Assembly (NCBI RefSeq): GCF_020595125.1
Contig: NZ_JACNMS010000003.1
Span: 248,001-312,000 of the forward strand
Length of the DNA stretch: 64,000 bases
Reading direction: 5' to 3'
Source of the DNA: Jeotgalibacillus aurantiacus
GTDB lineage: Bacteria > Bacillota > Bacilli > Bacillales > Jeotgalibacillaceae
Positions 18,868 to 46,955 of this stretch are shown here, piece by piece. Position numbers and translations under genes: made by a program. The notes beneath the pieces were generated by a model, which saw only the letters and a list, made by a program, of their open reading frames with translations, searched no databases and was not told where the DNA came from. Each line of letters begins with the position of its first letter. The first letter of the stretch is position 1.

Positions 18868-19065
18868 TACAATTATTTTTTGATTCGATACAATTCCGTT
18901 TCGGATCGTTACAATCCTTTGTTGAAACAGAACAAAAAAGGGACTGTATAACTTGAACAATACAATAAAAAATTGAAACGATTGAATGAAAGCACCATTC
19001 AGTACAATAAAAATCTGAATCGATGAAAAAACTCATTGGAACAGTACAATTCCTCATCCAAGCCA
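18868..19065 (+). repeat. Nine-unit 21-bp array, GTACAAT type (4+5)
   Basis: Anchors TACAAT or degenerate forms fall at 18868, 18889, 18910, 18931, then after a 30-bp step at 18961, 18982, 19003, 19024 and 19045. Six anchors are exact; those at 18931, 18982 and 19024 are weak. First to last anchor is 177 bp. It fills most of the 430-bp gap between the AlaX stop and the terminator at 19145; nothing else was seen there. Confidence 0.75.
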
Positions 19066-19144
19066 CATGCCCGAATGACCATCACAACACTCGCGCGGAG
19101 CCATCCAACATCCACAAACCCTATCTCTCCGCGTCAAACCAAAG

Positions 19145-19176
19145 AAAAAAGCTGTCCACTGCGGACAGCTTTTTTC
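19145..19176. terminator. Bidirectional terminator
   Basis: AAAAAAGCTGTCC and GGACAGCTTTTTT form a 13-bp perfect stem with loop ACTGC. It directly abuts the stop of the minus-strand PAS-STAS gene. Confidence 0.9.
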
Positions 19177-19941
19177 TTATTCATGATCCTGAGAGATAAT
19201 GTACTGAATCCCGTCATAAGTCGTTGTAAATATTCTCACATCGCGATCCAGGTTATTCATCGCCATTGCGAGCTCTGGTGTGACCCCTACGATCATGCAG
19301 TTTGTGCCGATCAGGCGAAGGCAGTCAATCAACTTTTGGAAAAGGTGTGTCGTATGTTCCCTTTCATTGAAGTAAACCTTATTTAAATTAATCAAGACAT
19401 AGTCAATCTGGTTTGATGCACATTCCTCTAACACATTGGTTACGAGAAGGTTAAAGCGCTCACTGTCAAAGGCTCCGATCAGCGGGAGAGCGATGGCATT
19501 GTGCCAGACTTTCATCATTGGAGTGGAAAGTGAGGCGATGAGCTTTTCTTTTTCCTCTTCTTCAGCTGCCTTTGTGGTTACATCCATCAGCATCACAATA
19601 TAGCCGTCAATTTGTTCTTCGTTTGACCGGATGGGTGTGACGACGATATCTGTAACGACCAGATTTTTAATCGTGATTCTTGTTCTGTGCGGGCCTTTGA
19701 GCCGTTTCATCATTTCATTTTGATGGGGAGGAAAGCTATGGAACAGGTCCATATTTTGCCCAATCATTTCGAGACTGCTGTTGAGGCCATAAGCAGCTGC
19801 AACGCCATTTAACAGATTGGCTGCAGATGAATTCATCCAGACAATATTATATTCGTGATCCGCTAATAAAATCGTTTCGCCGATGCTGTCCAGTGCAGCA
19901 AGCGGTGAAATTGCTGCGGGAATAACGCCATATGCTGTCAT
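19177..19941 (-). CDS. PAS-STAS protein, RsbR-like
   Basis: 254-aa cytosolic signalling protein. Residues 10-125 are a PAS domain (ILLADHEYNIVWMNSSAAN, ending GYIVMLMDVT). Residues 145-254 are a STAS domain (VLEECASNQIDYVLINLNKV, NCMIVGVTPELAMAM). The arrangement is that of RsbR-type stressosome paralogues, although the usual N-domain there is a nonheme globin rather than PAS. The segment after ASNQIDYVLINL carries Asn-Lys where RsbR has D-x-T/S phosphosites, so regulation by RsbT may be altered. ATG at 19941 has AGGAGAT upstream. Confidence 0.8.
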   Translation of the reverse strand: MTAYGVIPAAISPLAALDSIGETILLADHEYNIVWMNSSAANLLNGVAAAYGLNSSLEMIGQNMDLFHSFPPHQNEMMKRLKGPHRTRITIKNLVVTDIVVTPIRSNEEQIDGYIVMLMDVTTKAAEEEEKEKLIASLSTPMMKVWHNAIALPLIGAFDSERFNLLVTNVLEECASNQIDYVLINLNKVYFNEREHTTHLFQKLIDCLRLIGTNCMIVGVTPELAMAMNNLDRDVRIFTTTYDGIQYIISQDHE

Positions 19942-20140
19942 GGGGATCTCCTATCCTTTACGTAAAATTAATCAGCCTATATTATACGATATTCTTTCCC
20001 TTTCCACCTAATCGGAGCTGTTAATCCTTTTCAGCTAAAATAATTCAAAAAACAGGGATTTTGTTCACTTCCTTCAAAAGTCTGTTAATTAAAAAATGTC
20101 CACATGGCAGATGACAAAGTTGAATTTTCTATTCATTGTT

Positions 20141-20169
20141 TTGCATAAGTAAGCGCTTTATTATTAAAT
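20141..20169 (+). promoter_or_regulatory. mtl operon promoter with cre-like box
   Basis: TTGCAT at 20141 and TTAAAT at 20164 are spaced 17 bp. AGTAAGCGCTTTAT at 20148-20161 matches the cre consensus at 11 of 14 positions and lies in the spacer. CcpA repression and MtlR activation from upstream sequence are expected by analogy with other Bacillales mtl operons. Confidence 0.6.
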
Positions 20170-20215
20170 TAACAACATTGGAAAGTCAGTGAAAACAACT
20201 AAAGGAGGAACAAAA

Positions 20216-21673
20216 ATGGAAGGGAACAAGTCAGGTGTGAAGGCGAAAATTCAGAAGTTTGGTTCGTACTTGAGCGGCATGATTATGCCAAACATCGGTG
20301 CATTTATCGCTTGGGGACTTATTACTGCTTTATTTATTCCAACAGGATGGGCGCCTAACGAAGATTTGGCAACTGTCGTTGGACCGATGATTACGTACCT
20401 GCTGCCTTTACTGATCGGGTTTACCGGCGGACATATGATTTATGGCATGCGAGGCGGGGTGCTTGGTGCGACGGCCACGATTGGTGCGATTGTCGGAACG
20501 GATATCCCGATGTTTCTCGGTGCGATGATACTCGGACCGCTTGGTGGTTTCCTGATCAAACAGATCGATAAGCTATTTGAAGGAAAAGTAAAGCAAGGCT
20601 TTGAAATGCTGATCAATAACTTTACTGCAGGGATTCTTGGTGGTGCATTAACGCTGATTGCCTACACGGGAATTGGACCGGTTGTGCAGGGATTGAACGA
20701 AGTCATGGCTTCAGGTGTAAGAGTGATCGTGGATGCCAACCTGCTGCCGCTGGCAAGTGTTTTTGTTGAACCAGCGAAAGTACTGTTTTTAAATAATGCG
20801 ATCAACCATGGCATTCTCGGACCGCTTGCACTCGATCAGGCAGCCGATGCAGGTAAGTCGATTCTGTTTATGGTTGAATCCAACCCTGGACCGGGTCTTG
20901 GAATCCTGCTTGCTTATATGGTATTTGGAAAAGGGATGGCACGTCTATCTGCTTCAGGCGCGAGTGTGATCCACTTCCTTGGAGGGATTCACGAAATTTA
21001 CTTCCCTTATATCCTCATGAAGCCTGTGCTGATTGTGGCAGCGATCCTTGGTGGTGCGAGTGGTATTTTGACTTTCACACTATTGGATGTAGGTCTTGTG
21101 GCAACACCATCACCGGGTAGTATCTTTGCTTATCTGGCCATGACGCCGCGTGGTGACTACCTTGGCATGCTGTCCGGTGTGTTCATTTCAGCAGCAGTAT
21201 CATTCGGTTCTGCAGGTTTCTTACTGAAAGTGACGAAGTCTACCGAAGAAGACGATGCGCTGACTGAAGCAACAGAGCGTATGCAGGATATGAAAGGGAA
21301 GAAAAGTGCTGCTGCCGCTCATTTAACAGGCGGAGCGACACAGGAGCCTGTTGCTGCTGACACATCAACGTTTGTTGCCGGACCTGTTAATAAAGTGATC
21401 TTTGCCTGCGATGCCGGTATGGGTTCGAGCGCAATGGGTGCTTCTCTTTTGAAAAACAAATTCAAGAAAGCGGATATTGATATTTTTGTGACAAACACAG
21501 CAATTAATCAGATTCCTGAGGATGCGGATATCGTAATTACGCACAAAGACTTAACGGAACGTGCAATAGCAAAACGTCCGGATGCACGTCATATCTCGGT
21601 TGACAATTTCCTTGGCAGTCCAAAATACGACGAGCTGGTCAATGAATTAAAGCGGAAAGATGAATCTGCATAA
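20216..21673 (+). CDS. mtlA: PTS mannitol transporter EIICB
   Basis: 485-aa membrane permease that imports and phosphorylates D-mannitol. The EIIC part (about 1-340) begins FGSYLSGMIMPNIGAFIAWG and contains NPGPGLGILLAYM and GGIHEIYFPYILMKP, the MtlA substrate-site signature. The EIIB part (about 385-485) carries the phosphorylated Cys in VIFACDAGMGSSAMGASLL. EIIA is absent and is supplied by mtlF downstream, the Gram-positive arrangement. ATG at 20216 follows AAAGGAGGAA. Confidence 0.96.
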   Translation: MEGNKSGVKAKIQKFGSYLSGMIMPNIGAFIAWGLITALFIPTGWAPNEDLATVVGPMITYLLPLLIGFTGGHMIYGMRGGVLGATATIGAIVGTDIPMFLGAMILGPLGGFLIKQIDKLFEGKVKQGFEMLINNFTAGILGGALTLIAYTGIGPVVQGLNEVMASGVRVIVDANLLPLASVFVEPAKVLFLNNAINHGILGPLALDQAADAGKSILFMVESNPGPGLGILLAYMVFGKGMARLSASGASVIHFLGGIHEIYFPYILMKPVLIVAAILGGASGILTFTLLDVGLVATPSPGSIFAYLAMTPRGDYLGMLSGVFISAAVSFGSAGFLLKVTKSTEEDDALTEATERMQDMKGKKSAAAAHLTGGATQEPVAADTSTFVAGPVNKVIFACDAGMGSSAMGASLLKNKFKKADIDIFVTNTAINQIPEDADIVITHKDLTERAIAKRPDARHISVDNFLGSPKYDELVNELKRKDESA

Positions 21674-21682
21674 ACGTTATCG

Positions 21683-21725
21683 GGGAATCCGCTTGTACCC
21701 TCAAGACGGATTCCCTGTGTTTTTG
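21683..21725 (+). terminator. Intra-operon terminator-like hairpin
   Basis: GGGAATCCG and CGGATTCCC with a 15-nt loop, followed by TGTGTTTTTG. Located after mtlA, it may lower expression of mtlR, mtlF and mtlD relative to the permease. Confidence 0.65.
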
Positions 21726-21786
21726 TTCAGGGAGGATATAGCAGGTTGAACGGGGAAAAGAATAAATGAAAAGGAGGTGCTGATGT

Positions 21787-23886
21787 GTGTACGTAACAGG
21801 ACGTGAAAGAAAGATGCTTCATATACTGCTGACCGCTCAGCACCAGTTTACGACACTTGGTGAGCTTGCGGATCATTTACAGGTCAGTCAGCGCACGGTT
21901 CAGCGTGAATTAAATAAGCTGGATGATGTGCTGCAGCAATTTCATTTAAACATGGACAAACAGGCTGGAAGAGGCATCAGGCTGGCAGGGCCGTCGGACG
22001 GTTTCGAAAGGCTTGAGTCTGCCTTACTGCAGGTGCCCACCGCTGAACTCGATGCAGGGGAAAGAAAAATTCTCCTGCTGCATTATTTAATGAAACAAAA
22101 CACGGTTGTGAAGCTGGTGGAGCTGGCGAATGAGTTTCAGATGCCGACTGCTGCGCTCAGTCAGGCACTTGATGAATTGGAGGATTTTCTGAGACCTTAT
22201 GCAGTATCCATCATCAGGCGCAGGGGTTACGGAATCGAACTGTCGGGGGATGAAAAAGCAAAGCGCAGGTCTCTTGCTAACCTGATGATGGAAGAGCTTG
22301 AGAGTTCCTCCATTTATTCGATTCATGGAGGGCAGCTGTTTAACCAGCGGACACTCGATCATCAGGTATTCACGATCGTGAACCGGGAAGAGTTTGATCA
22401 GGTTGATCAGCTGATCAAACCTTTTATTGAGGAGCTGCCATATCCTTTGACGGATAGTGCATACGTTTCATTGTTATTGCATATTTGTCTGTCGCTTCAA
22501 AGAATTCGGGATGGAGCGACAGTGGAGCATCATGATCAGCTGCTGGAGGAATTACAGGCACTGCCGGAATATAGGATTGCCGATCAAATTATACATGCAT
22601 TGTCGAAAGCCTTCGATATGAAGATTGAAGAACAGGAAACGGGTTATATCACAATTCATTTAAAAACAGCCAAAAGACGTTTTCAGGAGCAGTTTGTGGA
22701 CCAGCTCATTAATCCTGAGCTGGCCGTGACAGTCCATCAGCTTGTCCGGGCTATTTCTGACCGGCTGAATGTGAACCTGCTGGATGATCCGGATTTAATT
22801 GAGGGACTGATTGCACACATTGAGCCTGGTATTCAGCGGGCAAAGGAGAGAAATTTCACTTACAATCCTCTGACAAACCGTATTAAGAGAGAGTATCCCG
22901 AGCTGTTTGAGGCGGTTCGCTCAAGTGTGGCGGAAGTGCTTCCGGGCTATGACTTTCCGGATGGTGAGCTTGCCTTTCTCGCTCTGCATTTCGGCTCGGC
23001 TTTAGAAGGACAGGCTGAACCTGGACATCTGTCTGTCCTCGTTGTGTGTGCAAGCGGAATCGGCACTTCAAAAATGATTGCCAGCCGTCTGCACAAGGAA
23101 TTTGATGAGATGAAATCAATTACGCTATCATCCATTCGTGAAGTGGAAAAACATTTAGAGGAAAGTCACTTTGACCTGATTGTTTCAACAGTGGGATTAA
23201 GTGGACTCACGGAGGATTACCTGCTGGTGAATCCGCTGCTTCCCCAATCGGATGCTGAAAAAATCCGAAAGGCCATTCAGGACATCAAACCAATGAAAAA
23301 ACCTTCTGCCTTGAAGCAGAAGCCGAGTGATGAGACGCCATTTCTCCATCGCTTAAAGCAGATGAATCAATATGCCAATGCGGTAGAGCAGGTATTGAAA
23401 CAATTTAGACTCGAACGAATTGAGGAAGGCATAAGCTTTTCAGACGTGCTGAAAAAGATTGATCTCACGCTTTTTGAGGAAAAGCTGATTGACGAATCAG
23501 GTTCCGTATACAAGAATCTGATGGAACGTGAATCCATTGGTGGTATGGGTATTCCGGATACGGGACTCGCGCTTTACCATTGCCGGGATGACATGATCCG
23601 GCAGCCGGTTTTCAGATTGTATGACCTGGCGGTGCCTTATGAGCTGAAGGGGATGGATGGTGATTTCATGCCTGTCAGCCGCCTGATTCTGATGGTGTCA
23701 CCTGATGATCAGGAAAGCCGGGGGGCAGAGGTGTTGAGCACGATCAGCGGGAGCCTTGTAGAAGAAGAGTCAACCATGCGTCTGATTCGGAACGGTTCAG
23801 AAAAAGAAATTTTTCAGTTTTTACAAAAAACCTTACATGATTTTTATACCGAAAAGTCAAAGAATTTAATGGAGGGAACATCATGA
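21787..23886 (+). CDS. mtlR: Mannitol operon activator, BglG/MtlR family with PRDs
   Basis: 699-aa transcription activator. Order of domains: HTH (LADHLQVSQRTVQRELNKL, residues 27-45), second HTH region (VELANEFQMPTAALSQAL), PRD1 and PRD2 (about 190-400, with histidines such as LLLHICLSL and IEGLIAHIEPGIQRAK, FLALHFGSAL), an EIIB-Gat-like domain with VVCASGIGTSKMIASRL near residue 420, and a C-terminal EIIA-Mtl-like domain (about 550-699, GIPDTGLALYHC). Its activity is set by PTS phosphorylation of these domains. GTG at 21787 has AAAGGAGGTG 6 nt upstream. Its stop overlaps mtlF ATG. Confidence 0.95.
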   Translation: MYVTGRERKMLHILLTAQHQFTTLGELADHLQVSQRTVQRELNKLDDVLQQFHLNMDKQAGRGIRLAGPSDGFERLESALLQVPTAELDAGERKILLLHYLMKQNTVVKLVELANEFQMPTAALSQALDELEDFLRPYAVSIIRRRGYGIELSGDEKAKRRSLANLMMEELESSSIYSIHGGQLFNQRTLDHQVFTIVNREEFDQVDQLIKPFIEELPYPLTDSAYVSLLLHICLSLQRIRDGATVEHHDQLLEELQALPEYRIADQIIHALSKAFDMKIEEQETGYITIHLKTAKRRFQEQFVDQLINPELAVTVHQLVRAISDRLNVNLLDDPDLIEGLIAHIEPGIQRAKERNFTYNPLTNRIKREYPELFEAVRSSVAEVLPGYDFPDGELAFLALHFGSALEGQAEPGHLSVLVVCASGIGTSKMIASRLHKEFDEMKSITLSSIREVEKHLEESHFDLIVSTVGLSGLTEDYLLVNPLLPQSDAEKIRKAIQDIKPMKKPSALKQKPSDETPFLHRLKQMNQYANAVEQVLKQFRLERIEEGISFSDVLKKIDLTLFEEKLIDESGSVYKNLMERESIGGMGIPDTGLALYHCRDDMIRQPVFRLYDLAVPYELKGMDGDFMPVSRLILMVSPDDQESRGAEVLSTISGSLVEEESTMRLIRNGSEKEIFQFLQKTLHDFYTEKSKNLMEGTS

Positions 23887-24314
23887 GCGACATCTTTAAA
23901 AAGGAAAACATTTATCTAAACGAATCAGCAGGAACGAAGAAGGAGGCGATTGAAAAGGCAGGGGCTGTCCTTGCTGAAAAGGGCTATGTGGACGAGGATT
24001 ATATAACAAGCATGCTTGAGCGTGAGGAAATCTCCACGACCTATATCGGAAACAAAATTGCGATCCCGCACGGCACGGAGGATTCGAAAAAGCTTGTGAA
24101 GAAGTCAGGCATTTCGGTTCTTCAGCTGCCAGAAGGGGTGATGTTTGATGACAATGAAGTAAACATTGTGGTCGGCATTGCCGGAAAAGACGGAGAGCAT
24201 TTGGAGATCTTATCAAAAATTGCGATCGCCTGCTCCGAAGAAGAAAACGTTGAGCGGCTAATCCAGGCAAAATCGGAAGAGGAGATCATCGCGATTTTTG
24301 AGGAGGCTGAATAA
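23883..24314 (+). CDS. mtlF: PTS mannitol EIIA component
   Basis: 143-aa cytosolic phosphocarrier that passes phosphate from HPr to the EIIB of MtlA. TYIGNKIAIPHGTEDSKKL around residue 54-72 carries the phosphorylated His in AIPHG. ATG overlaps the mtlR stop by 4 nt (ATGA), showing translational coupling. The gene in turn overlaps mtlD by 1 nt. Confidence 0.95.
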   Translation: MSDIFKKENIYLNESAGTKKEAIEKAGAVLAEKGYVDEDYITSMLEREEISTTYIGNKIAIPHGTEDSKKLVKKSGISVLQLPEGVMFDDNEVNIVVGIAGKDGEHLEILSKIAIACSEEENVERLIQAKSEEEIIAIFEEAE

Positions 24315-25453
24315 TGAAGGCTGTTCATTTTGGGGCTGGTAATATCGGGCGTGGATTTATCGGAGCGATTTTGCAGCAATCGGGCTATGATGTCATCTTT
24401 ATTGATGTTAATGCAGAACTGATCAACCGTATGAATCAGGACCGTCAGTATGAAGTGGTATTGGCTGATGAAACGAAGGAATCTTTTACGGTTAGGGGCG
24501 TCAGCGGAATTAATAGTCAGGAGAATCCTGAAGCAGCCGCCGCAGCTGTTGCAGATGCGGCGATGGTGACGGCCTCAGTCGGGCCTGGCGTGCTGCCGTT
24601 TATTGCGCCAGTGATTGCGAAAGGGCTGGCTGCACGACCAGAAGGAGCAGCAATCAATGTCATTGCCTGTGAAAATATGATTGGCGGCAGTGATAAATTG
24701 AAAAGTGAAGTGGAGAAACATCTATCTAAAAAAGAAGCTGAACACGTTTTTGCTCAAAGCGGCTTTCCGAATTCAGCAGTGGACCGGATCGTGCCAATTC
24801 AAAAGCATGATAATCCACTGAAGATTGAAGTAGAGCGCTATTTTGAATGGGTGATAGAAACGAAGGATCTGAGAGGGGAGCATCCAGCCCTTGAGGGTGC
24901 AATCTTCGTTGATGATCTCGTCCCTTTTATCGAGCGTAAGCTGTTAACGGTTAACACAGGACACGCGTCCATCGCCTATAACGGTTTATTAATGGGCTAT
25001 CAAACAGTAAAAGAAGCGATGGGCGATCAGCGTGTTGTCGATCTGCTAAAAGGGGTACTTCATGAAACGAGTCTATTTTTAACGGATAAGTTTGGTTTTG
25101 ATCAGGAGGACCACCAGGAATATGTACGCAAAATCATTGAGCGTTATCAAAATCCGTACATCTCAGATGGACTTGACCGCGTGGGGCGTGCACCGCTCCG
25201 TAAGCTGTCAGCAGGTGACCGTCTAACCTATCCAGCTGTCGAATTGAATAAGCACGGCATTGAACCGGTCAATCTTGAGCGGACCATTGCAGCGGCTCTT
25301 CATTTTGATCTGCAGGATGACCCTGAGGCGGTTGAACTGCAGGGATGGATCCGTGAATACGGTGTGGAAGCAGCCTATGAAAAAGCTTCGGGTGTTGCGG
25401 TTAGCAGCGAGATGAATCTTCGGATAAAGGATTATTATGAGACGGCACGTTGA
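24314..25453 (+). CDS. mtlD: Mannitol-1-phosphate 5-dehydrogenase
   Basis: 379-aa NAD-dependent enzyme converting mannitol 1-phosphate to fructose 6-phosphate. The N-terminal Rossmann motif is MKAVHFGAGNIGRGFIG. The catalytic region of the long-chain polyol dehydrogenases is visible as YNGLLMGYQTVKEAM, preceded by KLLTVNTGHASIAY. ATG overlaps the stop of mtlF in TAATG. Length and start agree with known MtlD. It closes the operon before a strong terminator. Confidence 0.96.
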   Translation: MKAVHFGAGNIGRGFIGAILQQSGYDVIFIDVNAELINRMNQDRQYEVVLADETKESFTVRGVSGINSQENPEAAAAAVADAAMVTASVGPGVLPFIAPVIAKGLAARPEGAAINVIACENMIGGSDKLKSEVEKHLSKKEAEHVFAQSGFPNSAVDRIVPIQKHDNPLKIEVERYFEWVIETKDLRGEHPALEGAIFVDDLVPFIERKLLTVNTGHASIAYNGLLMGYQTVKEAMGDQRVVDLLKGVLHETSLFLTDKFGFDQEDHQEYVRKIIERYQNPYISDGLDRVGRAPLRKLSAGDRLTYPAVELNKHGIEPVNLERTIAAALHFDLQDDPEAVELQGWIREYGVEAAYEKASGVAVSSEMNLRIKDYYETAR

Positions 25454-25462
25454 GGTCGTTTG

Positions 25463-25491
25463 AAACCACAGCTTTCGGGCTGTGGTTTTTC
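25463..25491 (+). terminator. mtl operon terminator
   Basis: AAACCACAGC and GCTGTGGTTT pair around TTTCGG, ending in TTTTT. Confidence 0.9.
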
Positions 25492-25500
25492 TAATGGGGA

Positions 25501-25812
25501 GGAGTCTGGCGGTTCGCAGGGTTTTGGTTGAGTTTCGCAGAATGCAGGTGGGTGTTCGCAGGATTCCTGTGAAGTTTCGCAAAATGTTGCCTGGGTTTCG
25601 CAAGATTATCCTTGAGTTTCGCAGAATCATGCCAAAGTACCCATCATACTCTGCAAGGCCGTCTGCTTCTATTTGGGAGTCTGGCGGTTCGCAGGGTTTT
25701 GGTTGAGTTTCGCAAAATGTTGGCTTATGTTCGCGGAATTCAGCTGGTGGTTCACAGAATGCAGACCGTGTTTCATGAGATTTTGTCCATGTTTCGCAAG
25801 ATCGTGCCAAAT
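25501..25812 (+). repeat. Duplicated six-unit 21-bp arrays, GTTCGCAAGATT type
   Basis: First block: units at 25512, 25533, 25554, 25575, 25596, 25617. Second block: 25687, 25708, 25729, 25750, 25771, 25792. All internal steps are 21 bp. About 39 bp beginning GGAGTCTGGCGGTTCGCAGG at 25501 recur identically at 25676, and each block ends with a related GCCAAA-ACCCA segment, so the whole block was duplicated with a 175-bp offset. Peptides of 7-residue period read from it are by-products of the 21-bp period. The gap 25454-25915 holds only this and the mtl terminator. Confidence 0.85.
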
Positions 25813-25915
25813 GACCCAGCCCAGCTTCCTCATCAGTTCAGTTGCCAAAAGAAGGTGTCCACTTTCAAATAAAGGTATAATAGTACCAACATAAAATGAT
25901 CCAAGGAGGCGTCTT

Positions 25916-26632
25916 ATGAGAATCACAACAAAAGGAATGGTACACCAGATTTCGTTTTTGCCAAGTGCTTTCCCCGTTAATATGTATCTTGTCGAAGAGG
26001 AAGAAGACCTGACACTCGTCGATACCGGAGTGAAAATGTGTCATAAAGGCATTTTAAAAACAGCCGAAGAAATCGGAAAGCCGATTAAACGAATCATTGT
26101 CACGCATGCCCACTCTGATCATGCCGGCGGGATCGATGAATTAAAGAAAGCCATTCCCGGCGTTGAGTTTCTTTTGCCTGAACGTGAGTTGAAGCTCTGG
26201 CAGGGTGATAAGTCGCTTGAATCAGGAGAAGGTTCGCGCAAGGTGAAGGGCGGGATTCCGAAGGGGCTGAAGTCGAAGCCAGATTTTCTGTTGAAGGATG
26301 GAGACAAGGTTGGCTCTCTTCTTGCCATCAGCTCGCCTGGTCACACACCTGGACATATGGCTTTGTTTGATGAACGTTCACGAACGCTTTTAGCCGGAGA
26401 TGCGTTTCAGGTAAAAGGCGGGCTTGCTGTGGCCGGTGATACGCGACGGTCATTTCCATTTCCGGCGATGGCGACTTGGGATTTTGGCAGGGCCATTAAG
26501 TCTGCTGAAAAGCTGACAGCCTTAAAGCCTTACGTGCTTGGGGTAGGACACGGTGATTTTCTGGAGGATCCGGTTGAAGACATGAGACAGGTGATTGAAC
26601 GCGCGAAACAGGTGAAGCGGAAGCGGTCTTAA
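25916..26632 (+). CDS. MBL-fold metallo-hydrolase
   Basis: 238-aa cytosolic metallo-beta-lactamase-fold hydrolase. The metal motif HAHSDHAGG is at about residues 63-71; GHTPGHMALFD near residue 142 and LLAGDAFQVKGG near residue 159 supply the third His and the Asp; GVGHGD near residue 213 gives the last His. This is the YflN/glyoxalase-II-like group. Substrate unknown. CAAGGAGG lies 7 nt before the ATG. A promoter-like TATAAT is at 25875-25880. Confidence 0.88.
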   Translation: MRITTKGMVHQISFLPSAFPVNMYLVEEEEDLTLVDTGVKMCHKGILKTAEEIGKPIKRIIVTHAHSDHAGGIDELKKAIPGVEFLLPERELKLWQGDKSLESGEGSRKVKGGIPKGLKSKPDFLLKDGDKVGSLLAISSPGHTPGHMALFDERSRTLLAGDAFQVKGGLAVAGDTRRSFPFPAMATWDFGRAIKSAEKLTALKPYVLGVGHGDFLEDPVEDMRQVIERAKQVKRKRS

Positions 26633-26703
26633 TCGCTGTGGATGTGCTGGGCAACCCGGTCCGTGCGATACAATAAAACCATGAAAAATCAGGAGCTGAT
26701 ACC

Positions 26704-29573: not shown

Positions 29574-29597
29574 ATGTGGGGGCTTTGGGCAGGGTGA

Positions 29598-29795
29598 TAT
29601 TCACATAAAACCGTGTTCTATCCACATAAATGGTCGTGCGATGATCAGTTGATTGTCGTCTATCAACAGAAAACAGCATCTAATTAACAGATTCAGGTGG
29701 ATATGTTAAGTTATCAACATCAATGGGGCTGCTATCAACAGTTACAGACGTTCGATCAACGACAAATCGAAACTTATCAACAGTTGCGCCCAGGC
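29598..29795 (+). repeat. Nine-unit 21-bp array, TATCAACAG type (5+4)
   Basis: Anchors fall at 29598, 29619, 29640 (degenerate), 29661 and 29682, then after a 30-bp step at 29712, 29733, 29754 and 29775. First to last is 177 bp, as in the arrays at 18868 and 46758. Several 9-mers (CTATCCACA at 29618, TTATCAACA at 29711 and 29774) differ by one base from a DnaA box. The array lies between convergent genes. Confidence 0.75.
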
Positions 29796-36126: not shown

Positions 36127-36147
36127 ATGGGAGTTGGCAAGGAAGGT

Positions 36148-36273
36148 GTTCGCAGGATTATGGTTGAGGTTCGCAAGATTTAACGGCGGGTTCGCAGGAT
36201 TCTGGCAGAGGTTCAAAAGATTATGCAGCAGGTTCACAAGATTATGCCCTTGTTTCTCCGGATTGTGATATAA
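36148..36273 (+). repeat. Six-unit 21-bp array, GTTCGCAAGATT type
   Basis: Units at 36148, 36169, 36190, 36211, 36232 and 36253, exactly 21 bp apart. It lies between a plus-strand terminator at 36099 and a minus-strand terminator at 36293, so it is insulated from both neighbouring transcripts. Confidence 0.88.
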
Positions 36274-36292
36274 GAACTATTTCGCTCTTCAA

Positions 36293-38289: not shown

Positions 38290-38312
38290 AAATGTGAAAA
38301 GCTGTTAATCGA

Positions 38313-38437
38313 GTTTGTCAGGTTATCCATGGAATTCGTGAGGTTAGACAGTGAGAATGTGAGTTCGTGGGAGGAATTCGTGAGTTTCTAACCGGAGTTC
38401 GTGAGGTTAAAAAATAATTTGCAAGGTTAGTGTAAAA
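38313..38437 (+). repeat. Six-unit 21-bp array, ATTCGTGAGGTT type
   Basis: TGAG cores (or TCAG, CAAG) at 38318, 38339, 38360, 38381, 38402 and 38422. Steps are 21, 21, 21, 21 and 20, the same as in the array at 2853. It follows the peptidase terminator. The 38252-38574 gap contains nothing else but the promoter of the leader. Confidence 0.8.
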
Positions 38438-38574
38438 AGTCCTGGATTAAATTTTGCATTTTCCGTGTTTAATAAACTGTAAAATCCCTTCTATATAAAA
38501 AACCTTTTGTTAAACTCTTACTCCTCTTTTACTTCAATAAATTGTATAATAAAAGAAAAAAGGAGTGGATTCGT

Positions 38575-38604: not shown

Positions 38605-38673
38605 TCGAATGCCCGTGAACCACCACCCGTGCTCTCTTGATTGATTTCTAAAAAAGAGAGAGGTGGAGGAACG

Positions 38674-39837: not shown

Positions 39838-39852
39838 TTGCGGGCTCTTTTC
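39822..39852 (+). terminator. Rho-independent terminator
   Basis: AAAAGAGCCTGC and GCGGGCTCTTTT pair around ATAATT. It includes the MFS stop codon in the loop region. Confidence 0.85.
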
Positions 39853-39906
39853 GTTCGTATAAAAGCAGGAAAAGAATTCTGCTCTTCCGGCTCACTTGTA
39901 TAAGTA

Positions 39907-40020
39907 TTATTTGTTATCCGATTTCTTATTTCCTTTTGCGTGCTTCCCCTGGCGTCCGTATTCCTTGTTCGTTTCTTTATTGCGTTCTTCTCCGCTTTTT
40001 CCACGATTGCTGTCGCTCAT
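39907..40020 (-). CDS. Small hydrophilic protein, 37 aa, unknown
   Basis: Reads MSDSNRGKSGEERNKETN then EYGRQGKHAKGNKKSDNK region: highly charged, Asn/Lys/Gly-rich and without hydrophobic residues, like small acid-soluble or sporulation-linked peptides, though no family is matched. ATG at 40020 has GGAGGTGAGCACC upstream, a strong RBS. It runs opposite to the flanking genes. Confidence comes from the RBS and composition. Confidence 0.55.
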   Translation of the reverse strand: MSDSNRGKSGEERNKETNKEYGRQGKHAKGNKKSDNK

Positions 40021-40174
40021 GGTGCTCACCTCCAAAGAAAGTCATTTAGTAAACGTTTACATTTATGTGTGTACCCGCCATTTTCATTTCGAAACAATGT
40101 TTACCTAAAATTGATGAACTGATTATAATGGCCTGTGCTAAAATGATAAAAAAGACATAGAGCGGTGAGATCGT

Positions 40175-41179
40175 ATGGTGACTGAAAAACTAAAAGAGGA
40201 CGTTGTGCTTTCCAGGGAAAAAGTTGGTCATGCTCAGAAGTTCATTTTGAAAAAGTACCCTGATGCCACGTCCAAGAAGCGGGCAGCGATTTTGGCAGAC
40301 ACCTTACATAAAATGATCGAGCGTTCTCTTCCGAATGGAGAGGAAGAGCGGAAGAAAGCAGCAAGGCAAAGGCTGTTCGAGCATTTGCTGTCTTCAGGGA
40401 ATATGATCATTACACGGTTGGATCTTGCTGAAGAAGGGGCAGCATATGCAGACCCCGAAGAAATGATGAGCTGGAGTACGGGCTTTTTATCCGAGGATGA
40501 GGCGAAAAAGCTGATGGACGTATTTTACCCTCCTGTTAACGTGACCGGGAACGAAATGAAACCAATGAACAGGAAGAGGCTCATACCGGCTCTGTCGGGA
40601 ATATTGATCTCAGGATTGGCGGTCGTGCTTATTCTGACTGTTGACTGGCCGGACAAGACTGAACCTGAACGTATACTGGCGGAGGCCGTTCCTCCACCTG
40701 TTCAGAATGTAGAAGTTTACAAAGGACCTGTTAATGAGCTTCCGGAACATCTGAAATTTACGTTTGTTGAAAAGGAAGCTGTGCAGGTCTGGCTGGGTGA
40801 AAGGGGCTCGATTTTAGCGGACGACCGGAATGTGGATGCGATTTTTCAGGCTGCTCATGACTTTAATATTCACCCTCTGCTGCTTTTTGCGATTACAGGT
40901 CAGGAGCAGGCATTTGTTCCAAGAACGCATGAAAATGCAGAGGAAATTTCCAATAATCCTTTTAATGTGTTTCATAGCTGGCAGGATTTTAATACGAACA
41001 TTGAAGAATCATCTGAAATTGCGGCGAGAACGGTCGTCAACCTGAGTGACGGCCGTCCGCCAGAGGCGAATCCGATCCAGTGGATCAACCGGAAATACGC
41101 AGAAGATCCGAACTGGTGGCAGGGTGTAGAGGCCATTTTTGAACAGATGGAGAGGGAGATTGTGGCGAAACCGTCTTGA
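40175..41179 (+). CDS. Membrane-anchored protein with lysozyme/glucosaminidase-like domain
   Basis: 334-aa protein. Residues 1-130 are cytosolic and helical, with KRAAILADTLHKMIER; a single helix (RLIPALSGILISGLAVVLIL) spans about 132-155; the rest is extracellular. The C-terminal part, with VDAIFQAAHDFNIHPLLLFA and AITGQEQAF near residue 245, then NNPFNVFHSW, is like lytic transglycosylase or glucosaminidase domains, with Glu in GQEQ as the possible acid. It may cleave cell-wall glycan. Not matched to a named gene. ATG start has a weak RBS (GCGGTGAG). Confidence 0.65.
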   Translation: MVTEKLKEDVVLSREKVGHAQKFILKKYPDATSKKRAAILADTLHKMIERSLPNGEEERKKAARQRLFEHLLSSGNMIITRLDLAEEGAAYADPEEMMSWSTGFLSEDEAKKLMDVFYPPVNVTGNEMKPMNRKRLIPALSGILISGLAVVLILTVDWPDKTEPERILAEAVPPPVQNVEVYKGPVNELPEHLKFTFVEKEAVQVWLGERGSILADDRNVDAIFQAAHDFNIHPLLLFAITGQEQAFVPRTHENAEEISNNPFNVFHSWQDFNTNIEESSEIAARTVVNLSDGRPPEANPIQWINRKYAEDPNWWQGVEAIFEQMEREIVAKPS

Positions 41180-41256
41180 TCTGAAGGTGGTTTGAGTAAA
41201 TGGGGTGGGTTATTCTGATCTTTTGGTGCTTGTCCAGCCTGGAAACCTGGATTGAG

Positions 41257-41455
41257 GGAATCTTCTCGGGTAGTGATGGAATTCAGGTGTTGAAGTGATG
41301 GAATCTGTTTGCTGAATGAAGGGAATAAGCCGGACTGAAGCCATAGTGAGGGAATACATTTTTTAAACGACTGAATTATTTTCCAGAAAGAAGGCATTAT
41401 AAACTCAATAGAAGGAATAAGTGACAGTTGTGAAGGAATCCATAAAGGCCCACGC
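41257..41455 (+). repeat. Nine-unit 21-bp array, GAAGGAATAA type (4+5)
   Basis: GGAAT anchors at 41257, 41278, 41300 and 41322, then after a 29-bp step at 41351, 41372 (TGAAT), 41393 (GGCAT), 41414 and 41435. First to last is 178 bp. The enlarged step shares CCGG and TAGTGA with the inverted copy at 46758. TTCCAGAAAGAAGG occurs in both arrays. The gap 41180-41568 holds this array and the terminator for the minus-strand gene. Confidence 0.8.
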
Positions 41456-41524
41456 TTATAGACCCGTTTCAGAATTAAAAAAGTCCTTGAAGTTCAACAT
41501 TCATCTCAAATAACTTTTCAATAA

Positions 41525-41561
41525 AAACAGCTGAGACACATAAATGGTCTCAGCTGTTTCC
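41525..41561 (-). terminator. Terminator of LVIVD gene
   Basis: AAACAGCTGAGAC and GTCTCAGCTGTTT form a 13-bp perfect stem with a 9-nt loop; on the minus strand it ends in TTTTTATT. Confidence 0.88.
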
Positions 41562-41568
41562 GTTCATT

Positions 41569-42972
41569 TTAGTTATCTGTAGTTGGTGCTCCGCCTTTTC
41601 CACGCGTCAACACTTTTAGTCCCTGTCCCATATCAGAGGCAAGTACGTAGTTGCGGTCAACGAAGACGCCCCATACGTCTGCCTGGTCAGGTTTATACTG
41701 ACCAATTTGTTTTGGCTCAGAAGGATTTGAGATGTCTACCATATAGACACCACCTGCATAGTGGCTCAGGTAAAGGGTGTTACCGTGAACTTTTGGATCA
41801 TGAACAGTATTTCCGAATGTCACGCCGTCTTCAACATTATCTGTCAGGTCGGTTTTAAATTCGCTTAACAGTTTTGGATTTGTTTTATCTTTGATATCAA
41901 AAATTCGCGTATAGCCGTATGACTCTTCATAGCCCGGTTTCGTCGGGTTATACACTTCACGTGTCTCAATCAGAATGTTACCGCCTTTGGCAAGTGTTGC
42001 GGAATGGGCAGAACCCTGCTGTTCAGATGCAAAGTCAGTGCGGCCAAGGTATTTCGGGTTTTCAGGATCTTTTACGTCAAAGATGATTGTGCCAAGGTCC
42101 CACATAGAAACAAATGCGTAATCGCCGTTATCATCTGTTACGACAGAGTGGTTAAATACTGGGCGTGTTTTGCCGTCCGGAGAAGCCCAGTTGTATCCAT
42201 CAAAGTCCTCGGATACTTCAGGAAGGGTTCTTGGATCGAATTGCCATACTGTTTCAGGGTTTTTAGGGTCTGTGACATCAACGATTTGGAAGTCACGCTG
42301 TTCGCCGTGGCTGTAGTAATCAGCGTATGGATTGGCAGTGTAAACGTAAGCTTTTCCGTTTTTCGCAGATAGGTAAAGTTCGTGAGTACCTGCAGTGCGG
42401 TCATACACTTCCCAGAACCCGAGTTTTTCAGGATTAGTCGGATCCGTTACATCATAAAGCAGGAAGCCGCCTGATGTATCTTCACGGGTGCGGTTACGCT
42501 GCTGCACACTGACAACGGCAAGATCTCCCTTGAATTCAGGTGTGTTTACACTCTTTACAATGACTTTTTCCTGCCATGTTCCAGGAACATCATCATGAGC
42601 AAATACTGCGACTTCTTCAGGGTTATTTGGATCCTGAAGGTCGAATACGCGGACCCCGCCATTACCTCCATTAGCCGTGTGTGTACCGACGTAGGCATAC
42701 CCTTTATGCGCGTAGACGTCTGCTGTATTATTCTGTACCCCATTCAGTTCTTTGATCTGTTTAGCTGCTGACTCAGTAAGAGTAGATACATTTTTTGATC
42801 CTTCTAAATAGGCATCACTCAGGTTTTTAATTTCATCATTTGAGAATACACCGCGTTCTCCTTTTACAGCCCCACTGTCATCAAGTGAGTCGTGAGCAAG
42901 TGCTGGAGAAATTGCGCCAAATGCGAGTGCACCGGCGATAGAAGTCGTAAATAAAGCTTTTTTGAATTTCAT
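41569..42972 (-). CDS. Secreted LVIVD-repeat protein
   Basis: 467-aa exported protein. Signal peptide MKFKKALFTTSIAGALAFGA with cleavage near ALA-HDS. Several LVIVD-type repeats form a beta-propeller: GGVRVFDLQDPNNPEEV, FLLYDVTDPTNPEKLGFW, FQIVDVTDPKNPETVW, TIIFDVKDPENPKYLG, TRIFDIKDKTNPKLLSEF and VYMVDISNPSEPKQIG. This family has no known enzyme function and is often surface-located. ATG at 42972 has GGAGGG 6 nt upstream. Confidence 0.88.
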   Translation of the reverse strand: MKFKKALFTTSIAGALAFGAISPALAHDSLDDSGAVKGERGVFSNDEIKNLSDAYLEGSKNVSTLTESAAKQIKELNGVQNNTADVYAHKGYAYVGTHTANGGNGGVRVFDLQDPNNPEEVAVFAHDDVPGTWQEKVIVKSVNTPEFKGDLAVVSVQQRNRTREDTSGGFLLYDVTDPTNPEKLGFWEVYDRTAGTHELYLSAKNGKAYVYTANPYADYYSHGEQRDFQIVDVTDPKNPETVWQFDPRTLPEVSEDFDGYNWASPDGKTRPVFNHSVVTDDNGDYAFVSMWDLGTIIFDVKDPENPKYLGRTDFASEQQGSAHSATLAKGGNILIETREVYNPTKPGYEESYGYTRIFDIKDKTNPKLLSEFKTDLTDNVEDGVTFGNTVHDPKVHGNTLYLSHYAGGVYMVDISNPSEPKQIGQYKPDQADVWGVFVDRNYVLASDMGQGLKVLTRGKGGAPTTDN

Positions 42973-43183
42973 ATGAACCCTCCTGTATGTATGTTGTATA
43001 GAACATAATAACAAATATAGAAAAATTTAAATATTACAATATTATTATATGTTTATGACAAACCGGCCGATTTGTTTCTATACAATTCGAGTAAGAGGAA
43101 TATGTTTTGGGGGTCGAAAGAATTCTTTATAGATAAATTTTCTTTCAGTTATAATAAATAAAAATGTTAACGAGGTGATTCAA

Positions 43184-43891
43184 GTGAAAAATACTCCTGA
43201 AGAATCGTTCGATCAGCTTGCTCAGGCCTACGATCAGGAGGTGGACCATGCGAGCCCGTTTAATACCCATTATGAAAGACCCGCCATGATGAAAGAGCTG
43301 CCGGATGATTTAACCGGACTCAGTGTCTTAGATGCAGGATGTTCGGCGGGCTGGTATGCAGAGCAGCTTGTTGAACGGGGAGCTGAAGTTACGGGAATTG
43401 ATGTTAGCAGTGAAATGGTAAAGGCTGCTAAAAATCGTTTGAAGGACCATGCATCTTTTCTTCAGCATGATCTGACACAGCCGTTGCCGTTTGAAGATGA
43501 ATCTTATGATGTCGTGATCAGTTCATTGACACTTCATTATCTTGAAGACTGGAATCGTATAATGGGTGAAGTAAGAAGGGTGTTGAAGCCTGGCGGAACG
43601 TTTTTATTTTCTACCCACCATCCATTTATGGATTTCATTCAAATGAATGAAGAAAACTATTTTAAAAAGAAATTACTCCATGACGAGTGGACAAAAGGTG
43701 GGAAAACGGTTGAGGTGTCTTTTTACAGAAGGTCTTTGCAGGAAATCGTTCAGCAGACAATCAGGTATTTTGATCTGCTGGATCTGATTGAGCCTCAGCC
43801 ATTAAAAGAAATGGAGCAGATAAAGGCTGATCGATATGAATATTTAACAAAAAATCCTCATTTTCTCATGATAAAAGCAGGAAAAAGATGA
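43184..43891 (+). CDS. Class I SAM-dependent methyltransferase
   Basis: 235-aa cytosolic enzyme of the UbiE/Methyltransf_11 type. SVLDAGCSAGWYAEQLVERG at about residues 47-66 is motif I for S-adenosylmethionine; VTGIDVSSEMVKAAK motif II; YDVVISSLTLHYLEDW motif III; LKPGGTFLFSTHHP follows. Small-molecule acceptor unknown. GTG at 43184 follows GAGGTG by 6 nt; GTG at 43175 is part of that RBS. Confidence 0.9.
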   Translation: MKNTPEESFDQLAQAYDQEVDHASPFNTHYERPAMMKELPDDLTGLSVLDAGCSAGWYAEQLVERGAEVTGIDVSSEMVKAAKNRLKDHASFLQHDLTQPLPFEDESYDVVISSLTLHYLEDWNRIMGEVRRVLKPGGTFLFSTHHPFMDFIQMNEENYFKKKLLHDEWTKGGKTVEVSFYRRSLQEIVQQTIRYFDLLDLIEPQPLKEMEQIKADRYEYLTKNPHFLMIKAGKR

Positions 43892-43946
43892 ATAAATCCT
43901 TAATAATAGGTATAAAGAGTAAATGAAGGCAAAAGGGGAGTCACAG

Positions 43947-44738
43947 ATGAATGTTCTGTCGAGAAATCACATAACGGTTAGAGGGAAGGGAACGCAGCCT
44001 CTGGTTTTTGCACATGGGTTTGGCAGCAGTCAAGAGGCGTGGAGTCAGGTCAGCCCTGCATTTGAAAACGACTATAAGGTTATTTTATTTGATTATGTCG
44101 GATCTGGACGATCTGATAAAAAAGCGTATTCTGAAGAACGATATCAAAGCTTAAATGGTTATGCCGATGACCTGATTGAAGTGTGTGAGTCGTTAAATTT
44201 ATCTGATGTTACTGTGATCGGCCATTCCGTCAGTGGGATGATCAGTACACTTGCTTCGTTAAAGAGACCGGATCTTTTTAAGCAGCTGTTTATGATTGCC
44301 CCATCTCCGCGTTATTTAAATGAACCGGGTTACCACGGAGGGTTTACCAGGGATGAGATTTCAGGCTTACTGGATATGATGGAGAAAAACTTTAAGGAAT
44401 GGGCAAAATATCTGGCGCCGGTTGCTGCGAAAAATGCAAACCGTCCTCATTTGGCGGAAAACTTTGAACATCAGCTATTATCGAACGATCAAAAAATTGC
44501 CCGGCAATTTGCTGAAGCAACATTTTTAGTGGATATGAGGGACGTGTTAAAGGATGTAACACTTCCTGTCACCATTCTCCAGCCGAGTGATGACACGATT
44601 GTTCCTCATGAAGTTGCGGTGTTTCTTGATCAGCAGTTTCAGGACAGCCGACTCATTATTTTAAAGGCGACTGGACACAATCCGCATATCAGTCACCCGG
44701 AAGAAGTGGTAAAATATATTCATCAAACAATGATATAA
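43947..44738 (+). CDS. RsbQ-like alpha/beta hydrolase
   Basis: 263-aa cytosolic hydrolase. LVFAHGFGSSQEAWSQV (oxyanion hole), nucleophile Ser94 in VIGHSVSGMIS, Asp in LQPSDDTIVP near residue 217 and His in KATGHNPHISHP near residue 245 give the full catalytic triad. The sequence pattern, including FDYVGSGRSD, is that of B. subtilis RsbQ, which is needed for energy-stress signalling by its PAS partner RsbP. Here the next gene, 15 nt on, encodes PAS-GGDEF instead of a PAS phosphatase. ATG at 43947 follows AAAAGGGGAG. Natural substrate unknown. Confidence 0.88.
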   Translation: MNVLSRNHITVRGKGTQPLVFAHGFGSSQEAWSQVSPAFENDYKVILFDYVGSGRSDKKAYSEERYQSLNGYADDLIEVCESLNLSDVTVIGHSVSGMISTLASLKRPDLFKQLFMIAPSPRYLNEPGYHGGFTRDEISGLLDMMEKNFKEWAKYLAPVAAKNANRPHLAENFEHQLLSNDQKIARQFAEATFLVDMRDVLKDVTLPVTILQPSDDTIVPHEVAVFLDQQFQDSRLIILKATGHNPHISHPEEVVKYIHQTMI

Positions 44739-44753
44739 GTTGGGGGGGATTGC

Positions 44754-45716
44754 ATGGATAGCCAGCTGTATCATGCACCATGTGCTTTTGCTATTCTGGA
44801 ATTGGACGGAAGGATCATAGAAGCGAATAAAATGCTGGGAGAATTTACGGGACAAGCAACGGATGGTCTTGCTCAAAAACACATGAGTTCATTGCTGACA
44901 CTGCCTTCCCGCCTATATTTTCAAACCTATTTTATGCCTGTCCTGTCGTCTCAGGGAAGAGTAGAGGAGATGTACTTGACACTGAAAACAGATGGTGAGC
45001 CACTGCCGGTTCTGATTAATGCACAGCAACGCGACGGGCAGATTGAATGTGTGCTCGTTAAAATGAAAACCCGTGACGACTTTGAAAATGAACTGATCCG
45101 TTCGAAGCGTAATGTGGAAAAAGTACTTGAAAATACGGATCAGGCATATTCAGAACTGCAAAATCTCATTAATGAACTCGAAGGAAAACGGGAAGAAATT
45201 ACAGCTGCCAACGCTCGACTCGAAAATCTGGCTATGATTGATCCGTTAACGAATTTAAAAAACAGACGCTTTTTTGAAGATGCTGTTCAATCATTTATTC
45301 AGTGGGCTGATACAAAAAGGTTCGAATTCACTTTTGTGATATTAGATATTGATCATTTTAAACGGGTTAATGATCAATATGGACATCCTGTAGGCGATCA
45401 GGTGCTGCAGGAGCTTTCATGGAAGCTTGAGCAGGAAATCCGTGAAGGAGATGTACTTGCACGCTTAGGCGGCGAGGAGTTTGTAATTCTACTAGCCAAT
45501 GTCGGATCAGACAAGGCGCAGAAGGTTGCAGAAAGAATCCGTGCCAATGTGGAGTCTCACATGTGGTCGCACACACCTGTCACGATCAGTATTGGCATCA
45601 CGGACTATCAGGAAGGTGATCAGCGTAAGGACCTATTTTTACGTGCTGACCAGGCATTGTATCATTCTAAACAAAATGGACGAAATCAGGTCACCGTCAT
45701 CCCGGGCAAGCAGTAA
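44754..45716 (+). CDS. PAS-GGDEF diguanylate cyclase
   Basis: 320-aa cytosolic sensor. Residues 5-105 are PAS-like (CAFAILELDGRIIEANKMLG). A coiled coil follows (about 108-155, RSKRNVEKVLENTDQAYSEL). Residues 160-320 are GGDEF: MIDPLTNLKNRRFFED, VILDIDHFKRVNDQYGH and active-site GGEEF in ARLGGEEFVILL. RxxD (REGD) five residues ahead is an inhibitory I-site. It should make cyclic di-GMP. The neighbouring RsbQ-like hydrolase probably produces the ligand for the PAS domain (known for RsbQ/RsbP; inferred here). GGGGGGGA precedes the ATG. Confidence 0.92.
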   Translation: MDSQLYHAPCAFAILELDGRIIEANKMLGEFTGQATDGLAQKHMSSLLTLPSRLYFQTYFMPVLSSQGRVEEMYLTLKTDGEPLPVLINAQQRDGQIECVLVKMKTRDDFENELIRSKRNVEKVLENTDQAYSELQNLINELEGKREEITAANARLENLAMIDPLTNLKNRRFFEDAVQSFIQWADTKRFEFTFVILDIDHFKRVNDQYGHPVGDQVLQELSWKLEQEIREGDVLARLGGEEFVILLANVGSDKAQKVAERIRANVESHMWSHTPVTISIGITDYQEGDQRKDLFLRADQALYHSKQNGRNQVTVIPGKQ

Positions 45717-45735
45717 ATCTGCTTGCTTTCTTTTT
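45706..45735 (+). terminator. Rho-independent terminator
   Basis: GCAAGCAG and CTGCTTGC around TAAAT, followed by TTTCTTTTTG. It overlaps the stop codon of the cyclase. Confidence 0.85.
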
Positions 45736-45745
45736 GTTACTAAAA

Positions 45746-45770
45746 TATAATTAGTTACATAAAGTAACTA
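45746..45770 (+). promoter_or_regulatory. -10 and operator of CatE-like gene
   Basis: TATAAT at 45746-45751 is followed directly by TAGTTAC-ATAAA-GTAACTA (45752-45770), a perfect 7-bp inverted repeat. It resembles sites of MarR/DUF24 quinone sensors (YodB, CatR) that control catE in B. subtilis; the regulator here is not in the window. Confidence 0.7.
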
Positions 45771-45785
45771 GAAGGAGGGCTTGAC

Positions 45786-46619
45786 ATGATGTTTCATGAT
45801 CGACCGGCTGTCTATGTGGGTGAGGTTGTTTTGCTTGTAACAAATCTGGATCAGTCACTGGCATTTTATCAGAACGTCATCGGTTTTCGTCTTCTCAATC
45901 GGCAGGGTTCGCAGGTGACATTAACAGCAAATGGTGAAACGCCGCTGCTTACATTGATTCAGCCTGATGGCGTGCTGCCAAAACAATCGAAGAAAACCGG
46001 TTTATATCATTTTGCTATTTTACTTCCATCGAGAGCTGATCTGGCAGCCATCATCGAACATCTTGCTGAACATCAGATAAGACTTGGTGCCTCCGATCAC
46101 CTGGTCAGTGAAGCACTGTATTTTTCAGACCCGGATGGTAACGGTATTGAGATCTACCGCGACCGCGAGCCTGGTGAATGGAGCTGGAATCGCGATCAGG
46201 TTCGTATGACAGTGGATCCGCTGGATTTTGAAGACGTGCTTGAGACGGAACATCAAAAATGGACCGGCTTACCTGTCGAAACCAAAATGGGCCATATTCA
46301 TCTTCACGTATCGTCTATTTCAGATGCAGAGGAATTTTATACACAACTTCTTGGGTTCGAACCTGTATCCCGATATGGCAGTCAGGCATTGTTCCTGTCG
46401 ACTGAAAAATACCATCATCATATAGCAGTTAATACATGGAATGGCACCGGAATTCCTGCACCTGATCACAACACTGCGGGCCTGGCTCATTACACGCTTG
46501 TCTATCCTGATTCAGAGCAGCTTCTGGCAGCAGTACATAAGACGGGTGCTGTTGAGAAAGAAAAAGGGTACTACGTGAAGGATCCGTCCGGGAACGGGAT
46601 TATAATGATTACGAAATGA
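45786..46619 (+). CDS. catE: CatE-like catechol-2,3-dioxygenase (two-module VOC protein)
   Basis: 277-aa cytosolic extradiol-dioxygenase-fold enzyme with two VOC modules. Module 1: AVYVGEVVLLVTNLDQSLAF and LYFSDPDGNGIEIYRDR near residue 117, with W-S-W following; module 2: MGHIHLHVSSISDAEEFYTQ near residue 168 and KDPSGNGIIMI at the C-terminus. This is the organisation of B. subtilis CatE, which removes toxic catechols and quinones. Metal ligands are taken to be the His in GHIHLHV and others not individually assigned. AGAAGGAGGG lies 6 nt before the ATG. Confidence 0.85.
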   Translation: MMFHDRPAVYVGEVVLLVTNLDQSLAFYQNVIGFRLLNRQGSQVTLTANGETPLLTLIQPDGVLPKQSKKTGLYHFAILLPSRADLAAIIEHLAEHQIRLGASDHLVSEALYFSDPDGNGIEIYRDREPGEWSWNRDQVRMTVDPLDFEDVLETEHQKWTGLPVETKMGHIHLHVSSISDAEEFYTQLLGFEPVSRYGSQALFLSTEKYHHHIAVNTWNGTGIPAPDHNTAGLAHYTLVYPDSEQLLAAVHKTGAVEKEKGYYVKDPSGNGIIMITK

Positions 46620-46624
46620 ATCGG

Positions 46625-46664
46625 GCTGAGGCTGCACTCGTGATGAGTAGCCTTGGCTTTTTAT
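46625..46664 (+). terminator. Rho-independent terminator
   Basis: GCTGAGGCT and AGCCTTGGC pair (two T-G pairs) with an inner CTC/GAG helix, followed by TTTTTATTT. Confidence 0.7.
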
Positions 46665-46757
46665 TTAGGTTGGAGAGTCAGGTAGAGGACCTGCATCACC
46701 CCATACCTGATTGGACGCGGATCGGTTGCGGGAGTAGGAAAGGGGAGGCTTCGCGGG

Positions 46758-46955
46758 ATTCCATCACTGCCGGGACTTATTCGGTCTTTTGAGAAATTTA
46801 TTCCTTCTTTCTGGAATTTAATCCCTTCTTTCTGCGAAATGATTCTATCACTAGTACTCCCCGGTCTTATAATCCCTTCATAGCAGCTTGCGATTCCTTC
46901 ATTTAGTGAGTGGATTCAGTCATTTCAAAAATTAATTCCATTAATCTCAGCAGCT
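46758..46955 (-). repeat. Nine-unit 21-bp array, inverted GAAGGAATAA type
   Basis: ATTCC anchors (reverse of GGAAT) at 46758, 46779, 46800, 46821 and 46842, then after a 30-bp step at 46872, 46893, 46914 and 46935. Read on the minus strand it is 4+5, the same order as the copy at 41257. First to last is 177 bp. Anchors at 46779, 46842 and 46914 are degenerate. It occupies the 46620-47020 gap with the catE terminator; no gene was seen there. Confidence 0.8.

Follow-up and report, generated by a model that had tools for sequence, protein, structure and literature searches.

Arrays of in-phase 21-bp direct repeats with a fixed layout form a genome-wide class in Jeotgalibacillus

Why should repeat arrays of differing sequence be built to the same geometry? 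The question is raised by a 64-kb stretch of DNA (the window; C3:248001-312000 of the 3.5-Mb genome G000), whose relatives are Jeotgalibacillus. A sequence-only reading of the window had reported four arrays of nine units each, spaced 21 bp apart, with one step of about 30 bp always separating four units from five, and had assigned them to three unrelated sequence families. We confirm the arrays at these places: each has nine units at 21-bp steps and one step of 29-31 bp between a 4-block and a 5-block (A1-A4, Table 1). A nine-tooth 4+5 comb scores 108-166 at A1-A4, and its maximum in about 190 kb of Markov-shuffled window (three window lengths) is 94. The 4+5 split applies to all four arrays, but not in a strand-free reading, because A2 and A4 are 4+5 only on the minus strand.

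Elsewhere in the window, a 21-bp direct repeat (TTACATTATGCAAACGATCAT, about 2.3 copies, 63164-63226) lies directly upstream of a small XRE-like HTH gene (63248 on). It is perhaps the operator of that adjoining gene.

Table 1. Arrays and associated features in the window, and loci of a second array class in other genomes.
Feature	Position	Strand	Layout and context
F4 array (GTTCGCAAGATTA)	2665..2796	+	six units, GACCTATG at end
F5 array (TTCGTGAGGTTA)	2853..2985	+	five to six units
Left arm, GTTTTGCGCGGAG/CTCCGCGTCAAAC inverted repeat	18763..18775	+	flanks A1 on both sides, with the right arm
A1, F1 array (GAAACGATACAAT)	18855..19056	+	nine units, 4+5, 30-bp step
Right arm, GTTTTGCGCGGAG/CTCCGCGTCAAAC inverted repeat	19127..19139	-	flanks A1 on both sides, with the left arm
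Terminator hairpin	19142..19178	-	of converging minus-strand gene, beside A1
F4 array	25511..25643	+	six units, first of tandem pair (single array in sister species)
F4 array	25686..25815	+	six units, second of tandem pair
A2, F3 array (TGTCGATAG/TGTTGATAG)	29594..29782	-	nine units, 4+5 on minus strand
F4 array	36147..36275	+	six units, past a terminator
F5 array	38313..38437	+	six units, past a terminator
A3, F2 array (GTGAAGGAAT)	41246..41454	+	nine units, 4+5; unit 4 is GAAGGGAA, 1-bp shift
A4, F2 array	46748..46953	-	nine units, 4+5 on minus strand
F4 array	47915..48043	+	six units, past a terminator, GACCC at end
26-bp half-unit array	L173:7323-7635		
26-bp half-unit array	L193:13393-13653		
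26-bp half-unit array	L201:11641-11979		
26-bp half-unit array	L214:14435-14747		
26-bp half-unit array	L239:5407-5667		

A1-A4 belong to a class that spans the genome in Jeotgalibacillus. Across this halophilic relative of Bacillus and some related species, the class comprises hundreds of arrays, laid out as six units or as 4+5 units of 21 bp. Used as a DNA query, A1 finds dozens of places in the genome, several of them gapless over the whole of about 193 bp at 66-71% identity. When laid out, these places have nine units each and the long step at the same position. The exact 21-mer AAAATTGAAACGATTGAATAA has no match in the genome contigs.

Nine units are found in three families. F1 (GATACAAT) has about 35-40 arrays in the genome (36 profile-search matches), F2 (GAAGGAAT) has about 40 full-length arrays out of 51 matches, and F3 (TGTCGATAG) is the family that contains A2. 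They are not mutually unrelated, as had been thought: F1 and F2 are related, both with TTGAAACGATTGAAT-type units at position 8. Other families lack the long step. F4 (GTTCGCAAGATTA, 52 profile-search matches) has six 21-bp units, F5 (TTCGTGAGGTTA) has five to six, and F6 and F7 are two rarer six-unit families. F4 and F5 arrays often close, about 22 bp past the last anchor, with a GACCTAT-like motif that different species have in common. F6 (ACTTGGTCACA) and F7 (AGTGGTTAAATA) adjoin each other between an AraC-type gene and argC on contig C1 (L036:17860-18200), one of few divergent contexts. At least four families besides F1-F3, two of them in the window, thus have six units without a 30-bp step, and they are equally common. 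Hence nine units in 4+5 are not a general rule but one of two layouts.

Within the nine-unit families the geometry is fixed. We fitted layouts genome-wide with split and step both left free. For F1, 28 of 38 fits give 4+5 with a step of 29-30 bp, and a further nine give the same layout with one extra base in the 4-block. For F2 the count is 37 of 38, and all 14 F3 fits are compatible with 4+5. Apparent exceptions in F1-F3 are mostly an extra base in the 4-block, or ties. Free variation of unit number and step, which would have spoken against a shared layout, is therefore not what the genome contains: practically all F1-F3 arrays are 4+5. Motif-to-motif distances are 21, 30, 42, 51, 63 and 72 bp with 1-bp variants, and almost no others. 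None of the arrays sampled has an additional unit ahead of the first or past the ninth.

The 21-bp period also appears when no motif is given. A blind scan of periods from 15 to 30 bp finds 30 arrays in 864 kb of G000, all at 21 bp and none at another period. It finds 20 in the sister species G004, again all at 21 bp, and in G007 it finds 16 at 21 bp and two at 16 bp. The control, 1.5 Mb of shuffled noncoding DNA, yields zero arrays.

Each 21-bp period consists of a conserved core of 9-12 bp and a variable part of 9-12 bp. Tandem periodicity of this kind could come from replication slippage, which would make the arrays ordinary minisatellites. Unit loss has indeed been seen once: L342 lacks exactly one 21-bp unit of the orthologous L340 (five vs six), so the count can change. 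Slippage, however, leaves the opposite pattern to what we find, namely unrelated spacers, a nearly fixed unit number and a 30-bp step in three families; this origin has next to no probability. Peptide coding was rejected too: both 21 and 30 can be divided by three, but stop codons fall inside the units. The unit consensus is position-specific within an array, beyond shuffles (the F2 score is inflated by the 1-bp shift). Position-specific units could reflect module-by-module reading, or else the descent of all arrays from a single ancestor.

Selection maintains the layout of the arrays even as their sequence diverges. Between G000 and G004, orthologous arrays mismatch at 8.0% of anchor positions, 13.8% of spacer positions and 11.5% of flank positions. 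With one swapped site left out, arrays have 3 indels over about 3.9 kb and flanks have 70 over 7.1 kb. Indels within arrays are thus very rare, even though spacers change no more slowly than flanks. Nearly all array sites are occupied in both species; where the two differ, it is mostly by tandem duplication of a whole element or by a large insertion next to an array. The geometry shared by arrays of differing sequence, the core of the original observation, is far beyond chance and kept between species. Arrays whose layout is protected while the sequence changes look like docking sites for a putative DNA-binding system.

Alternatively, the arrays could be non-autonomous mobile repeats (MITE- or REP/BIME-like), mainly selfish. 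An enzyme encoded by the element would have spread an ancestral copy, and with it the geometry. The dozens of dispersed copies per family, the whole-element duplications and the differing sites between species all fit such an origin. So does a noncoding inverted-repeat motif, GTTTGNCGCGG, which in 464 kb occurs exclusively beside arrays: 13 of 13 lie within 100 bp of one, and 23% of noncoding DNA lies within 200 bp of an array. The motif is near 11 of 57 arrays only. Some arrays are bracketed by it, for example A1 (arms in Table 1) and C3:215960-216290 of G000. But selfish copies would decay. The exact spacing persists even in copies with spacers that no longer resemble one another, and indels are rejected between species; both speak against mobile repeats. 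Target-site duplications were not seen; at sites that are empty in other species, divergence is too great for element ends to be placed. Plasmid and phage collections contain no array match. We consider mobile repeats unlikely. Y1/RAYT transposases as a source were rejected: their genes show no correlation with the arrays (G007, with its 46 arrays, lacks such a gene, and several array-less species have one), and no arrays lie beside them.

The purity of arrays suggests that their units are read as sequence. We searched four Mesobacillus/Cytobacillus-type genomes for the pattern TAGWGATT, with A or T at one position. At this position 40 of 40 adjacent-unit pairs agree, several pairs coming from one array and hence not being fully independent, and the spacers are unrelated. 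The two kinds of array differ by one base (TAGAGATT vs TAGTGATT). Three of the four genomes carry both kinds, yet no single array mixes them. Homogeneous units between heterogeneous spacers suggest a trans-acting, sequence-specific reader rather than unit duplication.

Families are also exchanged in place. At C3:216019 an F1 array in G000 corresponds to an F2 array in G004 with the same flanks on either side, and at two orthologous sites in Cytobacillus/Mesobacillus some species have the A kind and others the T kind, which makes three exchanged sites in all. In a check for concerted base change within the array at orthologous swapped sites, spacer identity was at random level at site 1 and slightly above random at site 2.

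Where do the arrays lie? Their contexts are 40 convergent, 40 co-directional and 6 divergent, compared with 32, 79 and 37 among all gaps no shorter than 250 bp. Arrays thus favour gene 3' ends and avoid divergent promoters. They are also depleted around the terminus. On contig C2, the terminus contig that carries the GC-skew switch, 2 of 135 gene-end gaps hold an array vs 54 of 472 in the arms. G007 has a closed chromosome of 3.52 Mb in which dnaA lies at 0.5 kb; none of its 46 F4 arrays falls within 1.06-2.35 Mb. Genes in sampled stretches of C2 are almost wholly co-directional (for example, 17 kb plus and 0 kb minus), and those in the arms are mixed.

A position downstream of genes would suit a structured or regulatory RNA, such as a 3' UTR element, an attenuator or an RNA-protein binding array, and one of eight strands does fold better than its shuffles (z -2.7). 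The remaining seven strands, however, have z from -1.6 to +1.4, Rfam gives no match, many arrays are separated from the upstream gene by its terminator, and unit orientation is mixed relative to co-directional genes. An RNA function is highly improbable.

Positive supercoils gather at convergent gene ends, which the arrays prefer, and their period is two helical turns. On these grounds the arrays could be places of phased bending or of supercoil absorption, used by a general protein (gyrase, for instance) with no sequence-specific reading. Such a protein would not account for units that are specific to one base and differ between families within one cell, which leaves this explanation very unlikely.

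We regard it as probable, if far from certain, that sequence-specific factors use the arrays as composite sites and occupy a set number of in-phase direct repeats, probably to organise the chromosome. Each array would be one composite site for a polar DNA-binding factor that touches one motif of about 12 bp per two helical turns on a single face of the helix. The assembled complex would have a fixed size, making either six contacts or four plus five shifted by nearly one extra turn. The 30-bp step adds 9 bp to 21, nearly a full turn, which would keep both blocks roughly on one face. Each family would have its own factor or factor variant; these would probably be paralogues and would tell sites apart down to one base. 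A complex with a fixed number of DNA contacts would call for what the arrays have: polar units at two-turn intervals, a constant number of them, discrimination to one base and kept spacing. From this we infer protein binding, with one complex per array. As to the role, placement at gene 3' ends and away from the terminus makes chromosome organisation or insulation, comparable to that by nucleoid-occlusion, domain or roadblock sites, the most likely one, rather than regulation of single promoters.

Which protein could do this? Against this reading, no gene convincingly recurs beside arrays across genera, and internal-repeat scans covering about a third of G000 found no protein with six or nine DNA-binding modules. 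The helicase-associated (HA) repeat domain was rejected as a multi-module binder, since none scores over the family cut-off in the genus and G000 has none at all. A more specific proposal, which we hold to be rather doubtful, is a protein family with six or 4+5 tandem DNA-binding modules in one polypeptide that would read arrays module by module and mark the chromosome outside the terminus. Its specificity would shift among paralogues and lineages while the module count stays fixed.

Any such function would be dispensable, which also speaks against this reading, since array positions mostly differ between distant Jeotgalibacillus species and some members of the genus are seemingly array-less. 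F4 is found in about 30-55 copies in seven species, and its motif drifts from GTTCGCAAGATTA in G000 to GTTCGTAGAAAATA in G007 and G008. The F4 search gave no match in five species of the genus, and the blind scan found no 21-bp array in sampled DNA of G010, G003, G002 and G005. These four and G001 are taken as the members without arrays.

Arrays of six 21-bp units, built on other motifs, are found in Metabacillus malikii, Bacillus sp. ISL-55, Mesobacillus, Cytobacillus, Neobacillus, Sporosarcina and Lysinibacillus; Sporosarcina luteola additionally has one nine-unit array with 19- and 21-bp steps. A second array class consists of 26-bp half-units alternating in pairs (a 52-bp repeat) and is found in Metabacillus, Cytobacillus, Neobacillus and a Paenibacillus-labelled genome (Table 1). 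In other families of the order, units of about 20-21 bp (GTGCCGTTCC, TTGACCGATAGAA, CCAGATTCAAGTGATTTTTGT) run to at least 10 copies (L044, L051, L055, L058, L064 and L067 of G019; L043 of G027). These longer runs may be a relaxed relative of the array class.

The arrays point to a putative DNA-binding system with a counted architecture across several Bacillaceae genera, in which the recognition sequence shifts by lineage and family and the geometry is kept. The binder, if found, would be a new class of chromosome-organising protein and would offer a natural series of specificity switches for studying the evolution of DNA recognition. In the open-access text searched, we found no published description of such arrays, though an earlier report may exist elsewhere.

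Known systems resemble the arrays in part. REP/BIME elements are also dispersed, extragenic, located at gene 3' ends and sometimes accompanied by palindromes, but their unit is a GC-rich palindrome, whereas the array core consists of polar direct repeats. CRISPR arrays combine near-identical repeats of more than 20 bp with spacers of similar length; the arrays here have a core of 9-12 bp in a 21-bp period.

Plasmid iterons are direct repeats of 19-22 bp at replication origins, bound by Rep with one protomer per repeat. The arrays share with them the clustering of direct repeats near 21-22 bp, inside the 17-22 bp range that defines plasmid-type iterons, on one DNA face. Unlike iterons, hundreds of arrays lie at chromosomal gene ends, dispersed over both arms, in several sequence families per genome and with counts fixed at six or 4+5; they are not at the replication origin, and no rep gene recurs alongside. 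Of the iteron-like binding first suggested for the window, protein on one DNA face thus stays plausible as the best explanation, with no protein found, while the setting of origin and rep gene does not carry over. In parC-type plasmid centromeres, two blocks of direct repeats are separated by a wider gap. The 4+5 arrays appear to have the same two-block plan, but they exist in many chromosomal copies with no partner gene alongside.

Noc and SlmA sites serve nucleoid occlusion and are bound by a division inhibitor. They are tens of dispersed chromosomal sites, scarcer around the terminus, and the Noc consensus is a 14-bp palindrome (PMC4726725). The arrays are likewise many, dispersed and terminus-depleted, but they are polar, non-palindromic direct repeats, and Noc-like motif matches in the window lie outside them. 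A tandem-module reader, in turn, would compare in principle with TALE proteins.
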